Below are positions 40,634 to 50,430 of a stretch of 64,000 bases of DNA, one piece after another. Made by a program: the position numbers and the translations under genes. Below the pieces are notes generated by a model. It was not told the DNA's origin and did no database searches. It was given only the letters and a program-made list of their open reading frames with translations. Each line of letters begins with the position of its first letter. Positions within the stretch are counted from its first letter, which is position 1. This DNA comes from Corallococcus macrosporus (GTDB lineage Bacteria; Myxococcota; Myxococcia; Myxococcales; Myxococcaceae): contig NZ_JAFIMU010000002.1 in NCBI RefSeq assembly GCF_017302985.1, forward strand, positions 496,001 to 560,000. The letters run 5' to 3'.

Positions 40634-41491
40634 ATGGCCTTCGGAAAATCCAAGAACCGCCGCCGCCTGGACGCCGCACCGCGCAACGACGCGGTGAAGG
40701 GCGCGGTCCGTTCGCACGGGCCGACGGTGGCGAAGGCGCTGGGGCTGGCCGTCGCGACGGCGGGGCTCATCTGGGGCGGCATCGAGCTGCGTGCGTGGGC
40801 GCTGGTGTCGCCGCGCTTCGCGCTGGAGTCGGTGAACTTCTCCGGGCTGGAGCGGGCCTCGCGCCCGGAGCTCTTGAAGCTGTCGGGGCTGACGGCGGGG
40901 CAGAACCTGTGGACGCTGGACCCGGCCGCGCTGGCGAAGGCCATGGGTCAGCACCCCTGGGTGCGCACGGTGGAGGTGACGCGGCGGTTTCCGCGCGGCG
41001 TGTCCGTGGAGGTGACGGAGCACGCACCCGCGGCGCTGGCGGTGCTGGGCGACCTGTACGTGCTGGACGAGGAGGGCGAGCCCTTCAAGCGCGTCACCCC
41101 GGGGGACGGGCTGGACCTGCCGCTCGTCACCGGCATGGAGCGCGACGCGTACGTGGCGGACCCGGACGGGGTGCGCGCGAAGTTCCGTGAGGCGCTGGAT
41201 GTAACCCGTGCTTATGCGCGGCTGTTGCCCGGACGATCGGAGCGGCTTTCTGAAGTGCGCCTGGAGAACACCGGGCTTGCGCTGGTGACGGCGACGGGGC
41301 AGGAGGTGCGCCTCGGCGCGGGCGATACGGAAGTCAAGCTCCAGCGGCTGGCGCGCGTTCGACGCGAGCTCAGCACAAGGGGGCTTGCAGCCGCGATCAT
41401 TCGCCTGGATAACCGTGCCCGACCGGGTTGGGTGGCGGTGAGGCTTTCGAGTGGGTCCGACTCCGTGCGGAGCGGGGACTCGACGCAGTGA
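40634..41491 (+). CDS. ftsQ: Cell division protein FtsQ
   Basis: 285 residues. Basic cytosolic start (FGKSKNRRRLD), membrane helix ~32-50, POTRA domain (VNFSGLERASRPELLKLSGL... HPWVRTVEVTRRFPRGVSVEVTE) and the beta-domain (~140-260). Recruits FtsBL and couples to FtsWI. The start is the ATG at 40634; an upstream ATG at 40595 lies in an unlikely Cys/His stretch. 43 bases to ftsA. Confidence 0.93.
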   Translation: MAFGKSKNRRRLDAAPRNDAVKGAVRSHGPTVAKALGLAVATAGLIWGGIELRAWALVSPRFALESVNFSGLERASRPELLKLSGLTAGQNLWTLDPAALAKAMGQHPWVRTVEVTRRFPRGVSVEVTEHAPAALAVLGDLYVLDEEGEPFKRVTPGDGLDLPLVTGMERDAYVADPDGVRAKFREALDVTRAYARLLPGRSERLSEVRLENTGLALVTATGQEVRLGAGDTEVKLQRLARVRRELSTRGLAAAIIRLDNRARPGWVAVRLSSGSDSVRSGDSTQ

Positions 41492-41534
41492 GGATGCTTC
41501 CTTCACGAAAGTGAGGGAGCCTGGGAGGAGTCAC

Positions 41535-42770
41535 ATGGCGAAGCAGAAGTCGGGGGAGATCATCGTCGGCCTCGACATCGGCACGACGAAGATCTGCGCC
41601 ATCGTCGGCGAGCTGACCGATAGCGGTATCGACATCATCGGTATCGGTACGCATCCGTCGAAGGGATTGCGCAAGGGCGTCGTGGTCAACATCGAGGCCA
41701 CGGTGTCGTCCATCCGGCGCGCCGTGGAGGAAGCCGAGCTGATGGCCGGGGCGGAGATCTCCCACGTCTACACGGGGATCGCCGGCGGCCACATCAAGGG
41801 CTTCAACTCCCAGGGCATCGTCGCGGTGAAGGACAAGGAGGTCCGCGACGCGGACATCGCGCGCGTCATCGACGCCGCGAAGGCGGTGGCCATCCCGCTG
41901 GACCGGGAGGTCATCCACGTCCTGCCGCAGGAGTTCATCATCGACGACCAGGGCGGCATCAAGGAGCCCCTGGGCATGGCCGGCGTGCGCCTGGAGGCCA
42001 AGGTGCACATCGTCACGGGCGCCGTCTCCAGCGCGCAGAACATCGTCAAGTGCGCCAACCGCACGGGCCTGAACGTCTCCGACATCGTGCTCCAGCCGCT
42101 CGCCTCCGCTGAAGCCGTGCTGAGCGAGGACGAGAAGGAGCTGGGCGTGTGCCTCGTCGACATCGGCGGCGGCACGACGGACATCGCCATCTTCTCCGGC
42201 GGCTCCATCGTCCACACGGCGGTGATTGCCCTGGGCGGCAACAACCTGACGAGCGACATCGCCATCGGCCTGCGCACCCCCGCGCACGAGGCCGAGCGCA
42301 TCAAGCAGAAGTACGGCTGCGCGCTCGCGTCCATGATCAACAAGGACGAGACGATCGAAGTGCCGAGCGTGGGCGGCCGTCAGCCGCGCGTCCTGGGCCG
42401 GCAGATCCTCTCGGAGATTCTCGAGCCGCGCGTGGAGGAGATCTTCCAGCTCGTGCACCGGGAGATCCAGAAGTGCGGCTACGAGGACCTGCTCGCGTCG
42501 GGCATCGTCATCACGGGCGGCAGCACGCTGCTCGCGGGCATGCCGGAGCTGGCGGAAGAGGTGCTGGGCCTGCCGGTGCGCCGGGGCATGCCGCGCGGCA
42601 TCGGTGGCCTGGTGGACGTGGTGAAGAGCCCCATGTACGCCACGGGTGTGGGTCTGGTCGTCTACGGCGCCAAGCACATGGACCGCCGCATGTTCCGCAT
42701 CCGCGAGGACGGCAACGTCTACAAGAAGGTGAAGGGCCGGATGCGCGAGTGGCTGGAAGAGATTTTCTAA
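41535..42770 (+). CDS. ftsA: Cell division protein FtsA
   Basis: 411 residues, actin-like ATPase that ties FtsZ filaments to the membrane. VGLDIGTTKICAIVGE phosphate loop, the 1C subdomain (~85-165), LVDIGGGTTDIAIF and ITGGSTLLAGMPEL. The last residues (GRMREWLEEIF) form the amphipathic membrane-targeting helix. GGGAGGAG four bases before the ATG is a very strong ribosome site. A terminator follows at once, which separates ftsA from ftsZ. Confidence 0.97.
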   Translation: MAKQKSGEIIVGLDIGTTKICAIVGELTDSGIDIIGIGTHPSKGLRKGVVVNIEATVSSIRRAVEEAELMAGAEISHVYTGIAGGHIKGFNSQGIVAVKDKEVRDADIARVIDAAKAVAIPLDREVIHVLPQEFIIDDQGGIKEPLGMAGVRLEAKVHIVTGAVSSAQNIVKCANRTGLNVSDIVLQPLASAEAVLSEDEKELGVCLVDIGGGTTDIAIFSGGSIVHTAVIALGGNNLTSDIAIGLRTPAHEAERIKQKYGCALASMINKDETIEVPSVGGRQPRVLGRQILSEILEPRVEEIFQLVHREIQKCGYEDLLASGIVITGGSTLLAGMPELAEEVLGLPVRRGMPRGIGGLVDVVKSPMYATGVGLVVYGAKHMDRRMFRIREDGNVYKKVKGRMREWLEEIF

Positions 42771-43086: not shown

Positions 43087-46000
43087 ATGACACCACACAA
43101 GACTTCGCGGTTGCTGACGCCCCTACTGGGAGTACGCGGCTCTGCCGCGGCGCTGTTGGCCCTGCTGTGCGCCGTATTCGCGGCGCCCCCGGCCTTCGCT
43201 GAGCCGGACTCGTTCGGCCTGGGCAATGGCCACGATGGCCCGGAGGTCATTACCGCTCCCGGCACGGTCGTGAACATCTACACGCGGTTGACGCAGCCCG
43301 CGGGCGTGAATGCGACGACCGTGACCGTCACGGACACCACGGGCTTCAACGTGGGCGACCTGGTGATGCTCTACCAGTCCACGGGCTTCACAGGGGCAGT
43401 GACCTCCGGCGCCCCGGGCCCGTTCAACTTCTCGGCGACCCCGGTAGGCAACTGGCAGTTCGTTCGGCTCACGGATGTGACGGATGAGGAGCTGACCTTC
43501 ACGGGCATGCCGCTCACGACGGCGTTTACGGGCGGCAATGGTGACGTGGAGGCCATCCGGGCTTCGGCTCAGGCCATCCGGGTGCCCGAGTACACGACCG
43601 TGACCATCAACCCGGGCGCGAGCATCGTTGCCAAGCCGTGGTCCAACGACGGTGACTTCACGGACAGCCTGGGCGGCATCGTCGTCTTCCTGGCGAACGG
43701 GACGGTGACGAACAACGGCACCATTTCCGCCAGCGGCGCCGGCTTCCGAGGTGGCGAGGAGTTCAACGGGAGTGGCGACAATTGTCCGGAGACGGATCTG
43801 GACGTCGAGCATCCGCGCGGTGCCATCAAGGGCGAGAGCCTGGTTCCCACCCGCTACAAGCAGGACTTGGCATTCCCGGCCCCTGCCGGGACCTCGGGCC
43901 GGGGCAATGTTCTTCACGGCGGTGGTGGCGGTGTCTGCCACAACTCCGGCGGTGGTGGTGGTGGCAACGGCGGCGAGGGCGGTATCGGCGGCAGGACCTG
44001 GAGCGGTGATGACGAAGGAAACGCGCCCTCACGGCCCGTCGGAGGGTTGGGCGGCGGTCGGCTGACGTTCTCACCCGCGACCCGACTCCTGTTTGGTGGC
44101 GGTGGTGGCGCAGGTCACAGCAATGATGATGAGGGCGGCGGTGGCGGAAACGCCGGCGGCATCGTCTTCATTCGCGGTCAGGCCCTGGCTGGTAACGGAA
44201 GCATCACGTCGGATGGCGACCCGGGTGAGGACTCGCTGAATGATGCCGCGGGTGGCGGTGGCGCTGGCGGCACCCTCTCGCTGAACTTCACCGAAGCCCT
44301 CTCCTGTGGTGCGGGCACGCTGTCCGCCAATGGCGGCAAGGGCGGCGACAGCCATTTCGAGGAGCCGCACGGCACGGGCGGTGGCGGCGGTGGCGGCAAC
44401 ATCTTCCTGCAGGGCACGAGCCTCTCGTGCGGCACGTCGGTCGCGGGCGGCGTGGCGGGCCTCCAGGACACGACTGAGGCCGTGGATGGTCGGCCTTACG
44501 GCTCTGCTCCGGGCAACCCGGGTGTCATCACCCAGAACCTGCCGCCGACGGTGGCCATCACGACGCCGGCCAATGGCTCGACGGTGACGAACCCGAACGT
44601 GACGGTGACGGGCACGGCCACGAACGCCACCAGCGTCGTGGTGAGCTTCAACAATACGAACTACCCGGCGACGCTGACAGGCAACACCTGGAGCGTGGCG
44701 CTGCCCGGTCCGCTGCCCAACGGCCAGTACACGGTGACGGCGGTGTCCTCGAATGGGACGACCACGAGCACGCAGGCTTCTTCCACCTTCACGGTGCAGG
44801 CTGCCACGACGCCGACGGTGGCCATCACGACGCCGGCCAATGGCTCGACGGTGACGAACCCGAACGTGACGGTGACGGGCACGGCCACGAACGCCACCAG
44901 CGTCGTGGTGAGCTTCAACAATACGAACTACCCGGCGACGCTGACGGGCAACACCTGGAGCGTGGCGCTGCCCGGTCCGCTGCCCAATGGCCAGTACACG
45001 GTGACGGCAGTGTCCTCGGACGGGACGACCACGAGCACGCAGGCTTCTTCCACCTTCACGGTGGCGGTGCCGGCGCCGACGCCGACGGTGGCCATCACCA
45101 CGCCGGCCAACGGTTCGACGGTGACGAACCCGAACGTGACGGTGACGGGCACGGCCACGAACGCGACCAGCGTGACGGTGACGTTCCAGGGCACGGACTA
45201 CCCGGCGACGCTGACGGGCAACACCTGGACGGTGGACCTGCCCAGTTCGTTGCCCAACGGTCAGTACACGGTGACGGCGGTGTCCTCGAATGGGACGACC
45301 ACGAGCACGCAGGCTTCTTCCACCTTCACGGTGGCGGTGCCGGCGCCGACACCGACGGTGGCCATCACGACGCCGGCCAACGGTTCGACGGTGACGAACC
45401 CGAACGTGACGGTGACGGGCACGGCCACGAATGCCACCAGCGTGACGGTGACCTTCCAGGGCACGAACTACCCGGCGACGCTGACGGGCAATACCTGGAG
45501 CGTGGCGCTGCCCGGCCCGCTGTCCAATGGCCAGTACACGGTGACGGCGGTGTCCTCGAACGGGACGACCACGAGCACGCAGGCTTCTTCCACCTTCACG
45601 GTGGCGGTGCCGACGCCGACGCCGACGGTGGCCATCACCACGCCGGCCAATGGCTCGACGGTGACGAACCCGAACGTGACGGTGACGGGCACGGCCACGA
45701 ACGCGACCAGCGTGACGGTGACGTTCCAGGACACGGACTACCCGGCGACGCTGACGGGCAACACCTGGAGCGTGGCGCTGCCCGGCCCGCTGGCCAACGG
45801 CACGTACACCGTCACGGCGGTGTCCACCAACGGCACCACCAACAGCACGACCGCGACCTCTACCTTCACCGTCGACCCGGCGGGCACGGTGGACTCGGAC
45901 AACGACGGCCTGACGGACGAGGAGGAGGTCGACCTGGGCACCAACCCGAACGACCCGGACTCCGACGACGACGGCATCCCCGACGGCATCGAGGTCAAGG

Positions 46001-48855
46001 TGGGCGGCACGGATCCGCTCGACGACGACTCGGATGACGACGGCATCCTCGACGGCAACGAGGACAAGGACCACGACGGCATCGTCGATGCCGACGAGAC
46101 CGACCCGAAGAACATCGACACGGACGGCGACGGCCTGACCGACGGCGTCGAGACGGGCCTCACCGAGCCCCAGGGCGACGACACCGACCCGTCCAAGTTC
46201 GTGGCGGACAAGGACCCGTCGACCAAGACGAACCCGCTGGACGGCGACACGGATGACGACGGTCTGCTCGACGGCAACGAGGACGCCAACCACGACGGCA
46301 AGGTGGATCCGACGGAGACCGATCCGAACAACATCGACACGGACGGCGACGGCCTGACGGACGGCCTGGAGCTGGGCCTCACCCAGCCCCAGGGCGAGGA
46401 CACCGACCCGACGAAGTTCGTCGCGGATCAGGACCCCGACACCAAGACGAACCCGCTCAACAAGGACACCGACGGCGGCAGCGTGCTCGACGGCATCGAG
46501 GACGCGAACCACAACGGCCGCGTGGACGTGCTGGAGACGGACCCGAACAACGCCGCGGACGACAAGGACGCGGACGGCGACGGCATCGACAACGCCACGG
46601 AGCTGGAGAAGGGGACGGATCCGTTCGACCCCGACACCGACGACGACGGCGTGCCGGACGGCATCGACGGGCTGACCGACACGGACGGGGACGGCACCAT
46701 CGACGCGCTCGACCCCGACAGCGACAACGACGGCATCCTCGATGGCACCGAGCTGGGTGTCACCCTGGAGACCGCGCCCCCGGGCACGGACACGTCGTCC
46801 CCGAACTTCAAGCCGGACGCGGACCCGTCGACAAAGACGGATCCGAAGAAGGCGGACACGGACGGTGACGGCCTGAAGGACGGCGAAGAGGACGCCAACC
46901 ACGACGGCCGCCGTGACGCGACGGAGACGGATCCGACGATGAAGGACACCGACCAGGGCGGCATCGATGACGGCACGGAGGTGAACGGCGGCTCCAACCC
47001 GCTCGACGCCAACGATGACTACCTGGTGGTGGGCCACGGCTGCAGCACGGGCGGCTCCGGTTCGCTGGCGCCCTTCGCGCTCATGCTGATGGCGCTGCCC
47101 CTGGTGGGCCGCCGCTTCCGCCGCGCCGGGAACCTCCTGGCGCGCGCGGGTGGGGCGCTGACCGTGTTCATCACGGCCCTGTTCGCGGGCTCCACTGCCC
47201 ACGCGCAGGCCACGGCCGTGTCGCAGGCCATCGACGTGCAGCAGTACAAGCCGGGCCCGGGCATCGCGGACGTGCTCGCGGTGCACGGCGCGAAGGTGCA
47301 GCGGCACCTGGGGTGGAACGTGGGGCTGTCGGTCAACTACGCCGACAAGCCGCTCAACTTCTTCGACCCCCGCTCGGACACGTACATCACCTCCGTGGTG
47401 AAGAGTCAGGTCGGCGTGGACCTGATGGGCGCCATCGGTCTCTACGACCGGTTCGAGATCGGCGTCGTGCTGCCCATCACCATCCAGAGCTCGGAGGCTT
47501 CGCCGGGCGTGGACGCGTCCTTCTCCAACGGGGTGAGCGGGGGCGGCATCGGCGACCTGCGCCTCATCCCGAAGGCGCGCCTGCTGGACGGTGACAACTA
47601 CGGCCTGTCCGTGGTGGTGCCCGTGTCGCTGCCCACCGGCGGCGCCTCGGACTTCCTCGGCGGGTCGGGCGTGTCCGTCAACCCGCGCGTGGTGGCGGAG
47701 TACGGCCGGCGCTTCCGCGTACTGGCCAACGTGGGTGTGGACATCCGCAAGGCGGAGCAGCTGCGCAACCTGAACGTCGGCAGCGCGCTGGCGTACGGGG
47801 TGGGCGCGGAGGCGCCGCTGGGTGACCTGCCGCTGGCCGTCCAGGCCTCGCTGGTGGGCGCGGTGGGCTTCAAGCAGCAGAACGAGGAGGAGCGTCCGCT
47901 GGAGCTGCTCGCGGCCCTGAAGTACCGCGGCCTCACCGGTCTGTCCGCGCAGGTGGGCGCGGGCCCGGGCCTCACCCACGGCTACGGCACGCCGACGTTC
48001 CGCGTGCTCGCGTCCGTGGGCTACAGCACCCCGGAGCGCGCCCCGGCGCAGCCCCGGCCGGTGTGCCCGGAGGGCCCGGAGGACTTCGACGGCTTCCAGG
48101 ACCAGGACGGCTGCGCGGACCCGGACAACGACGGCGACGGCATCGTGGACACGCAGGACAAGTGCCCCAACGAGCCGGAGACCGTGAACGAGTTCGAGGA
48201 CGCCGACGGCTGCCCCGACACGAAGCCCGCGCCGCCTCCGCCCGCACCGGTGGACTCCGACGGCGACGGCCTGATGGACCCGGACGACAAGTGCCCCAAC
48301 GCGCCCGAGGACAAGGACGGCTTCCAGGACGAGGACGGCTGCCCGGACCCGGACAACGACAAGGACGGCATCCTGGACACGGCGGACAAGTGCCCGCTGG
48401 AGCCGGAGACCATCAACGGCGTGGCTGACGAGGACGGCTGCCCCGACAAGGGCAAGGTCAAGGTGCTCGTCGAGGGCGAGCGCATCCTCATCCTGGAGAA
48501 GGTCTACTTCGCCACGAACAAGGACGTCATCCTGCCGCGCTCGTTCCCCATCCTGAAGCAGGTGGCGGCCGTGCTGCGCGCCAACCCGCAGGTGGAGCTG
48601 CTGCGCGTCGAGGGACACACGGACAGCCAGGGCAGCGACGTCGCCAACCTGGACCTGTCCAAGCGCCGCGCCGCCAGCGTGAAGACGTTCCTCGTCAACG
48701 AGGGCATCGCCGCGGAGCGCCTGGAGTCCGAGGGCTACGGCGAGACGAAGCCCGTGGACACCAACAAGACGTCCGCTGGCCGTGAGAACAACCGCCGCGT
48801 GGAGTTCAACATCACGCGGATGGGCAAGGTGGAAGTGGAGAAGCCCGCCCCGTAG
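43087..48855 (+). CDS. Giant exported repeat protein fused to an OmpA-like outer-membrane protein
   Basis: 1922 residues. Signal peptide ends at AFA (~38). Gly-rich, parallel-beta-like region (~60-480) with clusters such as GGGGGGN. Five 89-90-residue Ig-like repeats (~487-935, each [20 protein letters not shown]...). Ca2+-binding DxDxDG repeats (~937-1310). Then [11 protein letters not shown] with Cys1319, a hydrophobic stretch ([15 protein letters not shown]) and RRFRR: a MYXO-CTERM-like sorting signal. It is not at the C-terminus; an Arg-rich loop and a second signal-like helix ([17 protein letters not shown], cleavage site after Ala1373) follow, then a beta-barrel-like domain (~1374-1655), type-3 thrombospondin repeats (~1660-1790) and an OmpA peptidoglycan-binding domain (~1800-1910, [11 protein letters not shown]). 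So two whole envelope proteins sit in one frame. A single terminator follows. Confidence 0.88.
44547..45890 (+). repeat. Five near-identical Ig-like domain repeats
   Basis: Five units of ~268-270 bases starting near 44547, 44815, 45085, 45355 and 45625. DNA identity is very high between neighbours (shared ACGGTGGCCATCAC and ACGGTGACGAACCCGAACGT), which implies recent duplication or gene conversion. Units 1-2 share [10 protein letters not shown], units 3-5 VTVTFQGT/D. Confidence 0.92.
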
Positions 48856-49103: not shown

Positions 49104-49194
49104 GAATACTTGCCAAAGCGCCCGACTTCCTGATGATTGTCGACGGTGGGTGTTTCCGCGGACGGCGCCGCGGTGCTTCCGCCACGAGGACGAC

Positions 49195-50430
49195 ATGGAC
49201 CAGTTCGAGCAGAACAAGCAGGCCGCGAAGATTCGTGTCGTGGGCGCGGGCGGGGCGGGCTGCAACGCGGTCAACACGATGATTCTGTCGAAGCTCGACC
49301 GCGTCGACTTCATCGCCGCCAACACCGATGTCCAGGCGCTCGCCGCGAGCAAGGCGCCCACCCGGCTGCAGCTGGGTCAGGCCCTCACCAAGGGCCTGGG
49401 CGCGGGCGCCAACCCGGAGATGGGCCGCGAGGCCGCCCTGGAGTCGCGCGATCAGATCGCCGCGGTGCTGGAAGGCGCCGACATGGTCTTCGTCACCGCA
49501 GGCATGGGCGGTGGCACCGGCACGGGCGCCGCGCCCATCATCGCGGACATCGCCAAGAGCCTGGGCTGCCTCACGGTGGGCGTCGTCACCAAGCCGTTCC
49601 TCTTCGAGGGCAACAAGCGCCGCAAGCAGGCCGAGCAGGGCATCGTGGAGCTCAAGGCCGCGGTGGACACGCTCATCACCATCCCCAACCAGCGCCTGCT
49701 GTCGCTCTCCAACGAGCCCATGCCGCTCTTGGAGACCTTCAAGCGCGCGGACGAGGTCCTGCTCAACGCCGTGCAGGGCATCAGCGACCTCATCCAGTAC
49801 CACGGCTACATCAACGTGGACTTCGCGGATGTGAAGACCATCATGAGCGACAAGGGCCTGGCGCTCATGGGCACGGGCCACGCGTGCGGCGACCGCCGCG
49901 CCATCACCGCCATGCAGCAGGCCATCTCCAGCCCGCTGCTGGAGGACGTCTCCATCGACGGCGCCACGGGCCTGCTCATCAACATCACCGGCGGCCGCGA
50001 CATGACCCTGCAGGAGGTCAACGAGGCGCTGACGCTGGTGCACGACGCGGCGGACGGCGAGGCGGAGATCATCTTCGGGTCGCTCATCGACGAGCAGATC
50101 CAGGACGAGGTGAAGATCACCATCATCGCCACGGGCTTCGTGCACCGGGACGCGCCCAAGGCGCGCCCCATGGCGCAGGTGGTCCAGGTGCCGCTCGTCG
50201 GCCGTCCCTCCTCGCCGCCCATGGCCCTGTCCTCGCCGCGCGAGGAGGTGGCCAGCCTGGTGCCCGCGAAGACCACGCCGCGTCCGACCATGTCCACCGT
50301 GGAGACGCCCAAGTCCTCCATGCAGAGCGCGCGCACGGCCGTGGTGAAGGACGCGGCGCTGCCCCTGGACGAGGATCAGTTCGACATCCCCACGTTCCTG
50401 CGCCGCCAGGGCCAGACGGAGCTGCCGTAG
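49195..50430 (+). CDS. ftsZ: Cell division GTPase FtsZ
   Basis: 411 residues. Tubulin-like GTPase forming the Z ring. GGAGCNAVN (~19-27) and tubulin signature [12 protein letters not shown] (103-114), NTDVQAL, and the T7 loop [11 protein letters not shown]. Linker ~315-385 with Pro/Ser-rich residues and the C-terminal tail peptide [11 protein letters not shown], which FtsA and other partners bind. Start ATG 49195 with GAGGA upstream. It is separated from ftsA by more than 6 kb, with its own upstream regulatory region, an uncommon arrangement. Confidence 0.98.

Follow-up and report, generated by a model that had tools for sequence, protein, structure and literature searches.

A predicted envelope polyprotein with an internal MYXO-CTERM signal and a second signal peptide, encoded between ftsA and ftsZ of Corallococcus macrosporus

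The DNA analysed here (the window) is a stretch of 64,000 nucleotides (nt) from Corallococcus macrosporus (contig NZ_JAFIMU010000002.1, positions 496,001 to 560,000), and our subject is one long gene within it, located at window positions 43087-48855 on the + strand, which most likely encodes two envelope proteins in a single chain. It is a stop-free open reading frame (ORF) that starts with ATG and is 1922 amino acids (aa) in length. The ORFs on both sides are also on the + strand, as are all features of the gene itself, and are identified as ftsA upstream (41451-42770; TIGR01174, 491.1 bits against a cut-off of 175.85) and ftsZ downstream (49150-50430; TIGR00065, 428.2 bits, cut-off 295.2). 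ftsA adjoins the fused gene in many of the named relatives as well, and the position matches that of MXAN_5598 in Myxococcus xanthus.

The N-terminal half begins with a predicted signal peptide (43087-43200), whose cleavage site was placed by eye in the sequence. It is followed by an AgmC_N domain (43201-44500; NF047640, 359.7 bits, cut-off 275), Ig-like repeats of the Big_7/Big_13 type (44543-45849; period 270 nt, 4.9 copies, 92% matches) and an Asp-rich TSP3 stalk (45892-47010; six stretches of PF18884, outer limits set by eye). The N-terminal domain passes the curated cut-off of NF047640 (AgmC), but the motility role to which the name of this family refers is putative here; literature searches on AgmC motility gave no usable paper. 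The stalk leads into an internal MYXO-CTERM signal (47032-47124) consisting of the motif GHGC (Cys1319, at 47041-47043), a hydrophobic helix and the Arg cluster RRFRR (aa 1342-1346). A loop of ten residues with one further Arg (47125-47154), predicted to be cytoplasmic and to form the n-region of a second signal, precedes the h- and c-region of a second predicted signal peptide (47155-47205), which ends in AHA|Q with the cleavage site after Ala1373 (nt 47205).

The C-terminal half contains a TraB-like outer-membrane beta-barrel (47206-48030), assigned from an AlphaFold2 model and its Foldseek matches to FapF (5o68) and 4rl8, and a second, Asp/Cys-rich TSP3-like block (48064-48456; conserved in the alignment, limits set by eye) which connects the barrel with an OmpA peptidoglycan-binding domain (48505-48795, aa 1807-1903; Foldseek match 5wtp). 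This last domain belongs to the OmpA family, with a PF00691 score of 76.6 bits that is above the gathering score (cut-off 27.2). The frame at 43087-48855, Cys1319, the RRFRR cluster at 1342-1346 and the AHA|Q site after Ala1373 all lie exactly where the original prediction, made from the sequence of the window, had placed them.

The MYXO-CTERM model TIGR03382 (GC_trans_RRR) recognizes the internal segment with 16.3 bits when a 90-aa piece is used and 15.9 bits when a 107-aa piece is used (cut-off 15.85), and with 16.4 bits in a genome-wide search, in which the segment of this gene was scored with its neighbours. The signal is not C-terminal here, since 576 aa of the frame remain after RRFRR. 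A census of the genome gives 21 matches over the TIGR03382 cut-off. For 19 of them a stop lies no more than 12 aa from the end of the match, and the other two, which are internal, are this gene and a paralogue on contig C6 (L-, G- and C-numbers denote loci, genomes and contigs of this genome, respectively), and in both of them a second helix and then a barrel follow. The census is incomplete, because a further paralogue on contig C10 was not returned by that search. The C10 and C6 paralogues share the junction with the gene in the window while their N-terminal halves differ, being built of Ig repeats and Kelch repeats, respectively. As a separate observation, the N-terminal signal of the Kelch paralogue (L010:4080-9062, C6) is by eye lipoprotein-like (LLSC|GG), so that this chain possibly carries three kinds of export signal, namely lipoprotein-like, internal MYXO-CTERM and second signal peptide.

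Relatives were drawn from this genome, from 59 genomes of the family and from a named genome collection (67 loci). The closest named match is from Corallococcus exercitus (94%), which by similarity places the genome in Corallococcus. Matches at E <= 1e-60 are present in 36 of the 59 family genomes (at most 21 candidates scored per genome), and the family loci that were read, 30 from the scan and 40 further stretches, are a subset of all matches. After exact duplicates and alignments shorter than 100 aa had been dropped, 141 frames with a barrel match were reduced to 118 distinct loci. A locus was called fused when an in-frame GxGC is present upstream of the barrel, the other junction features being tested separately. 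By this definition 83 loci are fused, 34 are stand-alone and one is cut off by a contig end. One stand-alone locus (L085) has 494 aa open upstream without a MYXO-CTERM, which by eye do not look like coding sequence. Fused loci occur also in single-contig genomes (e.g. G023 and G049), and the same junction is present in a contig of M. xanthus AM003 (L103) whose 5' end is cut and where ftsZ is adjoining.

A scan of the phylum finds a barrel match at E <= 1e-20 in 155 of 195 genomes (at most 10 candidates scored per genome). Reading of 42 more distant genomes provided 40 loci outside the family, a sample that leans to fusions because some of its loci were picked for long frames; 13 of them, in 11 families, are fused, 3 are two-gene and 24 stand-alone. 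In five of the 13 fusions (L189, L195, L218, L221 and L226) the Cys motif is other than GxGC, and the junctions of these five were assigned by eye; the displayed sequence of L222 ends inside the second signal, and the frame of L219 stops just past the barrel. With 83 of 118 barrel loci fused and 13 more outside the family, the possibility raised earlier that homologues are always split by a stop after RRFRR does not hold.

All 83 fused junctions carry at least three Arg/Lys in a 6-mer between the two hydrophobic segments, and the distance from motif to cut varies between 41 and 62 residues. The second helix of the gene in the window is predicted to be a substrate of Sec and signal peptidase I, having a basic n-region, a hydrophobic core and small residues at -3 and -1. 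The motif [AVSGT]xAQ is present at the expected place in 81 of the 83 fused loci (on average in 17, and at most in 28, over 1000 shuffles) and in 32 of the 34 stand-alone relatives. The junction scan that gave the Arg/Lys clusters and the spacing admitted only sites with Ala at -1 and favoured Q/E at +1. A scoring matrix trained solely on the 34 stand-alone signal peptides ranks 82/83 fused junctions ahead of 99% of the shuffles made from each, picks the identical cut site in 74/83 when searching blind, and in 70/83 gives the junction a higher score than every other examined place of the frame. In stand-alone and two-gene relatives the equivalent helix is the N-terminal signal peptide, and the second signal peptide proposed in the original prediction is borne out in that it both scores like these signal peptides and lines up with them.

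Ratios of nonsynonymous to synonymous substitution (dN/dS) were obtained from codon alignments of 11 Corallococcus orthologues, with L089 (longer junction) and L092 left out. They are 0.32 for the upstream TSP3 stalk, 0.24 for the MYXO-CTERM and 0.49 for the loop plus second helix, followed by 0.38 for the barrel and 0.39 for the second TSP3-like block plus OmpA domain. Because of these values the junction looks translated and constrained. Signal peptides are usually relaxed, as the second half of the junction is here.

The strongest support for a predicted polyprotein is provided by relatives that separate the two halves exactly between the two signals. Upstream MYXO-CTERM genes were accepted by reading their tails, as an automatic flag gave many false matches, and just four remained, namely L125, L031, L077 and TraA (L012). 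A separate gene encodes the N-terminal half in L031, L077 and L125 (the last from Myxococcus vastator); this gene closes with a MYXO-CTERM and a stop codon, and next comes the OmpA half, which has an N-terminal signal peptide of its own. In L233, L234 and L220, one in-frame stop follows the Arg cluster and the OmpA gene follows the stop. All six two-gene loci break between the two signals. The same break point is used by the genome's own TraA, which ends in ...RRVR, with the ATG of traB overlapping the traA stop by 4 nt. According to the available text of PMC3325183, a 4-nt overlap is likewise published for traA/traB of M. xanthus.

One syntenic locus, recognizable from the response-regulator gene that lies upstream of it (PF00072, 59.6 bits), occurs in three forms: fused (L009 and L056, the latter the same place as L124), two-gene (L125 and L077) and OmpA alone. 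When 22 OmpA-alone loci (L051 and L123 being one place) were searched with the N-terminal half of L009, the second signal excluded from the query, a relic of this half was recognizable in L114, L134 and L113 and doubtful in L112 (E 0.004), and none was retained in L053 and L131 under this exclusion. Inspection by eye shows a remnant of the first helix and of the Arg cluster in L122, L128, L131 and L053. On these alignments the N-terminal half is lost in several Corallococcus-type genomes at the response-regulator locus, with the OmpA half left intact. A maximum-likelihood tree, built quickly from 112 barrel halves (L149, L151, both frames of L153 and the short L145 left out), needs 9 changes between fused and stand-alone forms, at least 6 of which are forced by well supported branches; the deep part of the tree, which has several long branches, is unsure. 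In the same genome, L013:1616-6655 (C7) shows the same two partners in reverse order: the gene for a stand-alone OmpA-barrel protein comes first and, after a gap of 12 nt, a distinct gene encodes a MYXO-CTERM protein whose repeats are Cys-rich and Ig-like.

The AlphaFold2 model of the mature C-terminal half has a mean predicted local distance difference test score (pLDDT) of 80 and a predicted TM-score (pTM) of 0.50, and consists of a strand-rich barrel and an OmpA domain. Foldseek places FapF nearest to the barrel, with a target-normalized TM-score (TMt) of 0.59-0.71 among the matches listed (0.64-0.71 for 5o68), and also matches it to the COG4313 channel 4rl8 (TMt 0.70); the OmpA domain matches 5wtp (TMt 0.80-0.82). 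The model fits the description of TraB as barrel-TSP3-OmpA in the accessible part of PMC12045341, where TraA is predicted to sit atop the barrel in a 1:1 complex. The whole protein scores 290.4 bits with the TraB family NF033763, under its cut-off of 700, while the TraB of the same genome scores 981.1. A MYXO-CTERM surface protein beside a barrel-TSP3-OmpA protein is the arrangement of a TraAB-like pair. It may be added that FapF, to which the model of the barrel at 47206-48030 is closest, exports polypeptide, and the barrel may help to move its own N-terminal partner. The model of the N-terminal domain is poorer (pLDDT 66, residues ~185-310 mostly unresolved). Its Foldseek matches are weak, the best being phage tailspikes (E 6.3e-5, query-normalized TM-score 0.20), and were not used; a search of this domain against the sequences of the PDB gave no match.

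Our analysis suggests that the gene probably encodes an envelope polyprotein which is cut twice, by myxosortase and by signal peptidase I. Judged from its sequence, the single chain most likely combines a surface adhesin resembling TraA with an anchor to outer membrane and peptidoglycan that resembles TraB. Sec export would begin with the first signal peptide and continue until the MYXO-CTERM helix halts translocation, leaving the Arg cluster in the cytoplasm. The second helix, some ten residues further on, would then re-enter Sec as an internal signal peptide, and cleavage by signal peptidase I after AHA1373 would release the barrel-OmpA half, bound for the outer membrane. The N-terminal half, held in the inner membrane by the helical hairpin, would be lipidated at Cys1319, cut there by the myxosortase MrtX and handed by type II secretion to the surface, and the hairpin of ~54 residues (1320-1373) would be discarded. 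Each round of translation would thereby give one adhesin and one anchor. We infer both cuts, the lipidation, the surface transport and the pairing of adhesin and anchor. The genome has a gene for MrtX (NF040593, 452.5 bits, cut-off 180). An extension past the MYXO-CTERM appears to be tolerated, because TraA with a FLAG tag at its C-terminus, beyond the Arg tail, still loses the tag in an MrtX-dependent manner, as reported in the part of PMC11980579 available to us.

Several observations weigh against two cuts. With TIGR03901, whose cut-off is 20 bits, the internal segment scores just 16.4 and 15.9. Counts of the junction scan at -1 and +1 are not independent, because the sites were chosen by those residues; in the same way the matrix shows the same element rather than cleavage, because training and fused sequences are homologous, and 13 of the 83 fused frames hold an equal or better position, possibly their own N-terminal signal. 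The loop and second helix are the least constrained part of the junction. TraA, the substrate for which the MrtX cut is shown, has no further helix after its Arg cluster. Finally, the listing of MXAN_5598 among outer-membrane-vesicle proteins (PMC4158809, as far as its text is accessible) shows just that the product is made, not that the halves are separated. The sub-threshold TIGR03901 score, and the additional helix by which this MYXO-CTERM differs from that of TraA, would agree with a single cut, in which signal peptidase I frees the barrel-OmpA half and the N-terminal half either remains in the inner membrane through its helical hairpin or arrives at the surface in uncut form. However, constraint within the junction is strongest in the GxGC-helix-Arg block, and two-gene relatives carry this block as a C-terminal MYXO-CTERM-like end followed by a stop; we therefore regard a single cut as rather unlikely. 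That the fusion stays wholly unprocessed, as one long envelope-spanning protein with the two helices forming a permanent inner-membrane hairpin, is highly improbable. Although the frame is continuous and cleavage rests on prediction, a barrel still attached to the inner membrane would be unlikely to get to the outer membrane, the cleavage motif is kept far beyond the shuffle maximum, and the matching helix is an N-terminal signal peptide in stand-alone and two-gene relatives.

The original prediction also considered re-initiation near V1340, and more generally ribosomes might start in or after the first helix as well and make the OmpA half separately. In-frame start codons are available near the junction in the window (ATG at -41, ATG at -39 and GTG at -34 relative to the cleavage site), and the overlapping start of traA/traB lies at the same point. 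Shine-Dalgarno matches of these codons are 1/6, 2/6 and 3/6, respectively, and a match of at least 5/6 is found within -45 to -16 in one of 83 fused loci (4/83 in a wider zone). However, stand-alone OmpA genes score low too (1/34 in the wider zone), because of which Shine-Dalgarno strength does not discriminate and is weak evidence against an internal start. Start codons are more telling. Between -45 and -16, 50 of the 83 fused loci have an ATG and 6 have no start codon; the gene in the window has none in frame between the Arg cluster and residue -16, and is among the 37 of 83 without any from the Arg cluster on. Since these 37 exist and there is no stop to re-initiate from, re-initiation appears unlikely, its placement near V1340 is unsupported, and internal initiation of any kind is very improbable. 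Two-gene forms among the relatives might still suggest that an error of sequencing or assembly has removed a stop. This has a negligible probability and was rejected, as the junction is present at 83 distinct loci, among them two paralogues of the same genome with different N-terminal halves and the single-contig genomes G023 and G049.

The idea of a polyprotein, as put forward in the original prediction, is thus favoured by two back-to-back signals in a conserved frame and by relatives split between them, but it is not wholly new. The core of it is partly known already, because for MXAN_5598 an internal MYXO-CTERM, a fusion origin and processing of the N-terminal part have been published. Guo, Haft & Wall 2025 (PMC11980579, cited here from part of its text) apply the words 'atypical configuration' to MXAN_5598, which adjoins ftsA and ftsZ and combines a large adhesin region, a barrel and OmpA with a MYXO-CTERM in its interior. 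They suggest a fusion of two genes, liken it to TraA + TraB, propose that the N-terminal part is processed and term internal MYXO-CTERM motifs rare. The gene in the window shares with MXAN_5598 the place between ftsA and ftsZ, the adhesin region, the internal MYXO-CTERM, the barrel and OmpA. 'Second signal' and 'polyprotein' are absent from the main text of PMC11980579, as far as it is accessible, and a release of the OmpA half is not mentioned there; among the papers covered by a full-text search, MXAN_5598 is named only in PMC11980579 and PMC4158809. As far as these searches show, our additions are the second signal peptide, the breadth of occurrence of the fusions, the split forms and the polymorphic N-terminal domain.

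Comparable architectures are known elsewhere. TraA/TraB resemble this gene in having a surface receptor with a variable N-terminal domain, a repeat stalk and a MYXO-CTERM, and a barrel-TSP3-OmpA partner, but are two genes and two chains, with a PA14-like N-terminal domain where this gene has AgmC_N (available text of PMC3325183, PMC6372800 and PMC12045341). HVO_0405 of Haloferax volcanii is likewise a natural fusion with a central sorting signal and is cut at its central ArtA site, but by an archaeosortase and not a myxosortase, and a second signal peptide is not mentioned in the accessible part of PMC7157517. The two systems that follow share the single chain with the gene in the window. The cytochrome b/c1 precursor FbcH of Bradyrhizobium japonicum is one chain in which an internal signal peptide is cut to give two envelope proteins, although these are respiratory proteins of the inner membrane and no sorting signal stands ahead of the internal signal peptide; a literature search left this example unconfirmed, and searches on bacterial internal-signal polyproteins gave no usable paper. 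Type V autotransporters also combine a surface passenger and an outer-membrane barrel in one chain, but have one N-terminal signal, no intervening sorting signal and a passenger which crosses via its own barrel.

Bacteria normally synthesize each surface or outer-membrane protein as a chain of its own. Provided that both cuts take place, the fused gene is a ready-made way of fixing adhesin and anchor at 1:1, and myxosortase can act on a signal away from the end of a protein. The fused forms also point to surface proteins which end-of-protein searches can miss, because both internal MYXO-CTERM matches over the cut-off in this genome are fusions.

The AgmC_N domain differs from its flanks in being polymorphic. 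In nine Corallococcus loci (window 43201-44500, L088, L090, L091 and L093-L097) identity is 99-100% for ftsA, 95-100% for ftsZ and 83-99% for the barrel but just 63-86% for AgmC_N, and AgmC_N identity does not track barrel identity (r = -0.08, 36 pairs). In four pairs with near-identical flanks, synonymous divergence (pS) is 0.41-0.46 in AgmC_N versus 0.08-0.11 in the last 970 aa; DNA identity in these pairs dips slightly just upstream, drops to ~70-85% across the mature domain and rises again along the repeats. In a fifth pair (L090/L097), whose flanks have diverged, pS is 0.30 versus 0.22, and in a Myxococcus pair (L107/L108) it is 0.14 versus 0.07. By these comparisons AgmC_N is a sharply bounded polymorphic block. 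Because synonymous divergence is raised within it, the pattern is better explained by old alleles having been exchanged than by selection alone. Three loci of the C10 paralogue show no comparable polymorphic block. A role of AgmC_N in recognition is a reasonable guess by analogy, because TraA also has a variable N-terminal domain (PMC6372800, in the part available), and the domain is a candidate second recognition locus in social bacteria. It is conceivable, though we hold this more tentatively than the two cuts, that the fusions form a phylum-wide class of bacterial envelope polyproteins from which myxosortase and signal peptidase I release adhesin and anchor in equal numbers, and that the copy between ftsA and ftsZ is a fused second TraAB-like system of self-recognition or adhesion with an allele-exchanging domain.

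Among the ftsA-ftsZ relatives, one public genome carries an organism name that looks wrong. Two loci titled Comamonas sp. KCTC 72670 are Myxococcus-like, L100 (BNCN01000001.1) being an ftsA-fusion-ftsZ arrangement and L137 (BNCN01000004.1) a barrel gene.

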